DNA from: a virus
Virus record (IMG/VR): IMGVR_UViG_3300046002_003398
Coordinates: 1 to 27,596 of that record
Reading direction: 5' to 3' (one strand)
Length of the DNA: 27,596 nt
Positions 4,314 through 5,015 of the stretch are shown one piece after another. Below the pieces are notes generated by a model. That model saw only the letters and a program-made list of their open reading frames with translations, searched no databases and was not told the origin of the DNA. The position numbers were made by a program, and so were the translations under genes. Each line of letters starts with the position of its first letter. Position 1 is the stretch's first letter.

Positions 4314-5015
4314 TTAAATGAATTTTGCCCGCTCTATAAGGCCGTTAAAACTGTCTAATCTTGGCTCTGAGTTTTCGCAAGGTGGCTCGCAGTAACATTC
4401 GTGCTGCTTACAGCTTTCTTTGATTAAACCTATATACCTTTCATTGGCGATCACTGCTTCCGCGTGCCGTTCCATCACACAGCGATCCTGTTCGATAGCT
4501 AGTTCTATCTCAAATTGGGTCGGCTTTCTCCGCTCCATCATTCGACGATCTTGGCTTTGTGCTTGTTGTTTTTGATGTTCTTGTTGCGGCTCGGCTCGGC
4601 TCGGCTCGGCTCGGCTCGGCTCGGCTCGCAAGCTGGCTGGCTGGCTGGCTGGCTGGCTGGCTGGCTGGCTGGCTTTTTTGACAGCGTTCTCTTTTAAAAG
4701 TTCAATCATTTTTAAGCTAGTTTCATCAAATATTGATAAATCTAGGAAGTTATTAAGATTTACTGTTTTGTATGGGTATTTTGACCCCTCACCAGTAATT
4801 AACCATTCTGTACATATTCCTCCAAATATCTTACATATTTCTCTAGCCTGAGGCACTGATGGTATGCGTTCGCCATGCAAATAAAAATGAGCGCATACCG
4901 GACTAACACCAAGCTCCTTTCCTAATTTTACACGACTCAATTTACCCCACCCCTTGCTTTCAACAAGTGAAGTAAATCTTACTGCAAATTCTTTATCAAT
5001 TTCTAATTTAGCCAT
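4314..5015 (-). CDS. CI-like repressor with microsatellite-encoded linker, no visible peptidase domain
   Basis: 233 aa from the ATG at 5015 (MAKLEIDKEF). An in-frame ATG at 5063 exists but lies at or before the predicted transcription start and runs over an operator. Residues about 8-70 form a Cro/CI-type HTH (LSRVKLGKELGVSPVCAHFYLHGERIPSVPQAREICKIF in outline) ending in WLITGEGSKYP, a hallmark of phage CI-like repressors. The usual LexA/S24 self-cleavage domain is not apparent. Instead there is a linker of ASQP repeats then RAEPS repeats, encoded by pure 4-nt and 5-nt DNA repeats, and a charged tail of about 90 residues with four cysteines near the end. It is flanked by four operator copies, so it probably maintains lysogeny. 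Slippage in the repeats would remove the tail. The gene is convergent to nothing and is followed by its own terminator. Confidence 0.8.
   Translation of the reverse strand: MAKLEIDKEFAVRFTSLVESKGWGKLSRVKLGKELGVSPVCAHFYLHGERIPSVPQAREICKIFGGICTEWLITGEGSKYPYKTVNLNNFLDLSIFDETSLKMIELLKENAVKKASQPASQPASQPASLRAEPSRAEPSRAEPQQEHQKQQAQSQDRRMMERRKPTQFEIELAIEQDRCVMERHAEAVIANERYIGLIKESCKQHECYCEPPCENSEPRLDSFNGLIERAKFI
4587..4628. repeat. Pentanucleotide microsatellite (CGGCT) x8 plus CG
   Basis: Eight perfect copies at 4587-4626 and a partial copy to 4628, inside the repressor gene. On the coding strand the unit AGCCG gives S-R-A-E-P repeats in every frame, with no stop. The unit length is not a multiple of three, so gain or loss of one unit shifts the frame. 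Confidence 0.98.
4632..4674. repeat. Tetranucleotide microsatellite (GCTG) x10 plus GCT
   Basis: Ten perfect copies from 4632 to 4671 and a partial copy to 4674, three bases from the pentanucleotide tract and also inside the repressor gene. The coding-strand unit gives A-S-Q-P repeats in every frame. Tracts of this kind and length are classic slippage-prone contingency repeats. Confidence 0.98.

Follow-up and report, generated by a model that had tools for sequence, protein, structure and literature searches.

The repressor gene and its immunity region

The window, as the DNA analysed here is called, is a fragment that makes up a virus record of 27.6 kb. Its minus strand carries an open reading frame (4314-5063) that encodes a CI-like repressor and contains two adjacent simple sequence repeat (SSR) tracts; the features of the locus are collected in Table 1. 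Of its two candidate start codons, the ATG at 5015 is probably the one used in preference to that at 5063, because the resulting 'MAKL' start is also found in a second phage with the same repeat type (L006) and because an operator-like site lies at 5040-5054. The product matched the PHROG family phrog_8 (transcriptional regulator), and AF2 modelled its HTH domain at pLDDT 90-95. The top Foldseek matches of the model were HTH regulators including lambda CI, P22 c2 and TP901-1 CI (best E 5e-3), and no match of the whole repressor model fell below E 0.001.

Table 1. Features of the repressor locus, with positions in the window
Feature	Position	Strand	Evidence
OL-like operator pair	4192-4206 and 4226-4240	+	Motif scan, predicted
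Terminator-like hairpin and T run	4263-4282	-	3' of the repressor gene
CI-like repressor CDS, 233 aa	4314-5015	-	phrog_8 match (E 4.6e-11); frame reaches ATG 5063
Conserved tail (DRR...EQDRCVMERH...CYCEPPC) and stop	4314-4550	-	Conservation in relatives; predicted helix about 4404-4517
Pentanucleotide tract, (AGCCG)8 + 2 nt on the coding strand, 42 nt	4587-4628	-	Direct count
Tetranucleotide tract, (AGCC)10 + AGC on the coding strand, 43 nt	4632-4674	-	Direct count
N-terminal HTH DNA-binding domain	4776-5015	-	AF2 model, Foldseek, weak Pfam HTH_3 match
OR-like operator pair TTAACYGATTGTWAA	5040-5054 and 5074-5088	-	Motif scan, predicted
Cro/YdaS-like HTH gene, 62 aa	5099-5287	+	Divergent from the repressor

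The Cro/YdaS-like gene begins 83 bp from the repressor and is oppositely directed. The motif scan revealed four TTAACYGATTGTWAA sites with at most one mismatch, arranged in two pairs (4192/4226 and 5040/5074) with a spacing of 34 bp in each, and a scrambled control of the motif gave zero sites. The pairs flank the repressor gene on both sides, the arrangement expected of OL and OR. Thus the locus shows the layout of a lambda-like CI immunity repressor, in which the HTH gene and a cro-like gene diverge and repeated operator-like sites lie on both sides. The CI-like identity proposed by the first-pass annotation is therefore borne out by the phrog_8 match, the HTH model, the Cro-like neighbour and the operator-like sites. 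The same annotation had reported the self-cleavage domain as missing, and Pfam indeed found no S24/LexA-like domain in the repressor or its relatives. The SOS-inducible, self-cleaving C-terminus of lambda-like CI is not recognisable, so the repressor would act like the CI type but is not classed as a self-cleaving CI.

A tyrosine integrase is encoded in 8 of the 16 records of the group, including that of L007, the closest relative of the window by tail, and is absent from the window, which is a fragment. Close to cro, a gene of the rightward operon (5802-6914) combines a C-terminal MT-A70 methyltransferase domain with a ParB-like N-terminal part (PHROG matches). Searches for the host returned none, because tblastn of the tail and of the whole protein against named phages and plasmids gave no match and no relatives of either were found in a genome collection of 84,980 species.

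Repeat tracts and the C-terminal tail

The first-pass annotation had described eight CGGCT and ten GCTG units separated by 3 nt, and a recount reproduced its coordinates, copy numbers and spacer. (CGGCT)x8 occupies 4587-4626 in a perfect period-5 stretch that extends to 4628, (GCTG)x10 occupies 4632-4671 in a perfect period-4 stretch that extends to 4674, and the spacer is CAA (4629-4631). In 200 first-order Markov random sequences with the composition of the window, the longest period-4 or period-5 runs were 15 nt, versus the 43 and 42 nt observed. In simulated translation the product shrinks from 233 aa to 157-169 aa when either tract gains or loses a single unit. The remaining frame predictions of that annotation also held: tails read in the other frames stop at TGA 4540-4538 and 4512-4510, and paired changes in both tracts (-9 or +9 nt) bring the frame back. 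Furthermore, the tracts are free of stops in every frame, as had been claimed, because a 4-nt or 5-nt repeat encodes an identical cyclic peptide in all frames. The locus hence has the marks of an SSR contingency locus, namely long perfect repeats beyond chance expectation, in a coding region, with units not divisible by three and, at the level of translation, a unit change that toggles between full-length and truncated product. In the AF2 model the residues holding the repeat (117-161) are disordered. A terminator-like prediction on the plus strand (4631-4674) was discarded as self-pairing of the repeat via G-T, antisense to the gene.

Whether the tail belongs to the protein had been fixed beforehand as one point on which the switch proposal could fall, and here the proposal held, since at least seven further virus records conserve the tail. 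Its divergence from the window to L007 is dN 0.036 and dS 0.30 (dN/dS about 0.12), and between L004 and L008 dS is 1.2 and dN 0.03. Judged by these substitution patterns the tail is under purifying selection and is real coding sequence; from the dN/dS and the conservation it follows that the frame as it stands is the functional one. L007 likewise has a terminator-like hairpin and T run behind its tail. The tail has no sequence relative in the PDB and no Pfam family, and AF2 models it mostly as one long helix (residues 167-204). On this model it looks more like an oligomerisation element than a substitute for the cleavage domain, and we can only infer that it stands in for the latter.

Slippage-prone tracts at the same site in related phages

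Relatives of the repressor carry poly-G in the linker, at the position homologous to the repeats of the window. The first of these, with AATGT(G)nT[AG]AAC, were collected through the protein tail, independently of any repeat; a pattern search with free tract length added phages, some of them with a second, shorter tail type, and a search with the short tail added L027. Identical genes were counted once, which left 11 genes with an uncut tract. Ten of them hold a pure poly-G of 11 or 14 G and the eleventh (L027) holds AAT followed by G13, all in frame with a tail (11/11), and the L005 contig opens within a G run of 17 or more. The HTH DNA of L016 and L024 is 96% identical and their poly-G differs by exactly 3 G. 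For the repeat of the window itself there is no uncut close relative, the sequence of L007 starting after the repeat. Elsewhere in one poly-G relative, at L005 1887-1916, lies a hexamer repeat of the in-frame type, (ACGGTG)x5. In L014, L016, L018, L022 and L024 the stop of the short tail is followed by conserved DNA (GCGGTTTTACAGATGGGAATTGGCAACACACCTATCTGAATGTAAT), a different frame of which translates as GFTDGNWQHTYLNVI; it is perhaps the remains of a longer tail.

Searches with the flank of the window and with the combined repeat had L006 as their sole match, a phage from another metagenome record whose HTH is related to that of the window (48-54% identity). Its repeat consists of (AGCC)4, two AGCTTGCG units and then about three AGCCG units, and thus repeats the tetramer-spacer-pentamer order of the window in a related repressor. 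The HTH frame of L006 ends about 4 codons past the repeat, and a 62-codon open reading frame in another frame runs to a CCDC90-like gene (Pfam PF07798). According to the simulation, loss of one AGCC or gain of one pentamer would fuse the HTH frame to the 62-codon frame, which makes L006 a candidate OFF copy. Our search returned no known relatives of the 62-codon frame, which could be a separate gene. A gene similar, as judged by eye, to the CCDC90-like one follows the tail in L002.

Taken with the tracts of the window, the different stutter-prone repeat of the relatives at the same site suggests that slips can toggle the control of dormancy. Two ideas for a common basis of these tracts were rejected. 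A shared G-quadruplex or hairpin theme is at odds with the strands, since poly-G lies on the coding strand in the relatives whereas in the window that strand is rich in C there, and with the RNA of the window, which folds only modestly better than its shuffles (z -2.5). RNA polymerase or the ribosome could undergo programmed slippage on poly-G but hardly on units of 4-5 nt, so this idea fails to unite the cases.

A proposed contingency locus in a lysogeny repressor and its alternatives

We propose, with a probability of roughly 0.6 for the joint claim, that the gene encodes the repressor by which a lambda-like temperate phage keeps lysogeny, and that its flexible linker holds, in the repeats, a contingency (phase-variation) locus. 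Of the phase-variable switch put forward in the first-pass annotation, the conserved tail and the slippage-prone tract at the same linker site in relatives are now in its favour, and the switching itself stays a candidate.

The alternative that survives best, which we nevertheless rate as unlikely, is a length-tolerant disordered linker in which slippage repeats are tolerated in frame-keeping steps with no adaptive switching. It accords with the modelled disorder of the linker holding the tract and with the 11 uncut poly-G tracts, all in frame and differing in length by 3. Neutrality, however, predicts linkers of 3-nt units or mixed codons, whereas pure tracts of 1-, 4- and 5-nt units recur at one site. 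Moreover, poly-G stays pure while the tails are at synonymous saturation (L002 versus L004), and in the 13 poly-G records runs of nine or more G are nearly confined to the linker site. Two other nine-G runs exist, at 12113-12121 (+) in the record of L024 and at 23280-23288 (-) in that of L027. GGG makes up only 13.5% of glycine codons in the long open reading frames of these phages, yet every lineage has 3-4 consecutive GGG, which together with the saturated tails argues that the poly-G run itself is maintained. Part of the purity may come from recent module exchange, since about 60 nt of linker are common to genes with unrelated HTH domains. The length-tolerant reading is weakened by these data. 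A contingency switch appears to fit better than a neutral linker, because different repeats occupy one homologous site, remain pure despite synonymous divergence and keep the frame. Our confidence is not higher because a consensus in the ON state only is also what a length-tolerant linker would give.

By sequence comparison, the repeat-bearing linker is a point around which HTH domains and tails have been shuffled. In L027 (2629-3117, compared with L002 1912-2604) the short tail is joined to an L002-type HTH with 80% DNA identity. L008 and L009 are alike in the linker (92%) and the tail (90-98%) but not in the HTH (59%). Such free combination would also be expected if the repetitive linker were kept as homology for recombination between HTH domains and tails of co-resident phages. 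We regard this as improbable: the whole linker of about 60 nt already provides homology in the absence of a pure repeat, and the window and L006 have their repeat type in common along with the HTH, whereas the tail does not go with it. Of 17 contigs, 4 have an end no more than 150 nt from the tract, versus 0.36 expected (simulated p about 0.0003), which fits length heterogeneity and equally homopolymer errors or mosaic junctions and is only suggestive. An artefact of metagenome assembly or sequencing, in which the repeats or just their lengths would be erroneous, would suit this excess and the origin of all sequences from metagenome contigs, where long homopolymers are error-prone, but is very improbable given that the tract order of the window recurs in the separate record of L006 and that random errors would break the frame kept by poly-G at one site in 11 distinct genes.

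For the contingency locus the following course is conceivable. By replication slippage the tetramer and pentamer tracts would gain or lose units in vivo, and two of the three frames would stop the protein 15-30 residues past the repeat, leaving the HTH domain without the conserved tail. The tail probably serves the assembly or stability of the repressor, so its loss might render repression weak or absent, and a reverse slip or a slip in the other tract would bring it back. The outcome would be a heritable and reversible minority of leaky or lytic-prone phage that arises without DNA damage. By analogy with TP901-1, OFF variants would be leaky or incapable of holding lysogeny; such variants should be rare among assembled prophages since they induce, which fits the ON consensus sequences. 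More tentatively, slippage may have replaced SOS-triggered self-cleavage as a stochastic trigger of induction in a lineage of temperate phages, with a linker tract (poly-G or AGCC/AGCCG) toggling the tail and with HTH domains and tails shuffled around it.

AGCC is a known contingency unit, for instance in the mod genes of Haemophilus and Neisseria. In bacteria, phase variation by SSRs is well documented for surface and modification genes (PMC11868660). The locus resembles these in its perfect repeats within the reading frame, the unit not divisible by three and the truncation of the product by a one-unit change; it differs in that the gene is a phage lysogeny repressor, instead of one for surface structures or a DNA methyltransferase, and in that its variation is predicted. 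For phages this 2025 review cites a single case, in which SSRs control the receptor-binding proteins of Campylobacter phages, and the words repressor, prophage and lysogen are absent from it. In the Fletchervirus phages concerned, as cited in PMC11868660 and PMC8713573, poly-G causes phase variation of the receptor-binding proteins (Sorensen et al. 2021 Cell Rep 35:109214). This system shares with ours a hypermutable poly-G in a phage gene, there a source of phenotypic diversity, but controls adsorption proteins and not the lysis-lysogeny decision. Our full-text literature searches, with most subscription papers outside their reach, found no phase-variable phage repressor.

The TP901-1 CI repressor consists of an HTH domain, a flexible linker and a helical C-terminal oligomerisation region (PMC4941734, PMC4892519). 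Removal of its last 43 residues lowers oligomerisation and keeps DNA binding and repression, and its authors suggest that the multimer stabilises lysogens (PMC4892519; also PMC4941734). The repressor of the window has the same order of HTH, flexible linker and, by model, helical C-terminus; unlike it, TP901-1 CI has no reported linker repeat, and the tail described here has no sequence relative in the PDB. In C-terminal frameshift (vir) mutants of the Mu repressor, the altered C-terminus changes stability and hence lysogeny. Similarly, the C-terminus of integration-dependent immunity repressors is changed by site-specific integration, which alters their stability and hence lysogeny (PMC6109161). 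In contrast to these systems, which depend on integration or rare mutation, the window has a built-in hypermutable repeat.

If the contingency reading is true, replication errors at a dedicated repeat can set prophage induction, and the phage would hedge its bets between dormancy and lysis in a heritable, reversible way that needs no DNA damage. Phase variation, known from surface genes and from the receptor-binding proteins of phages, would then reach the lysis-lysogeny switch itself. Since several phages have the same layout in unrelated HTH contexts, this would be a general question and not a single oddity.
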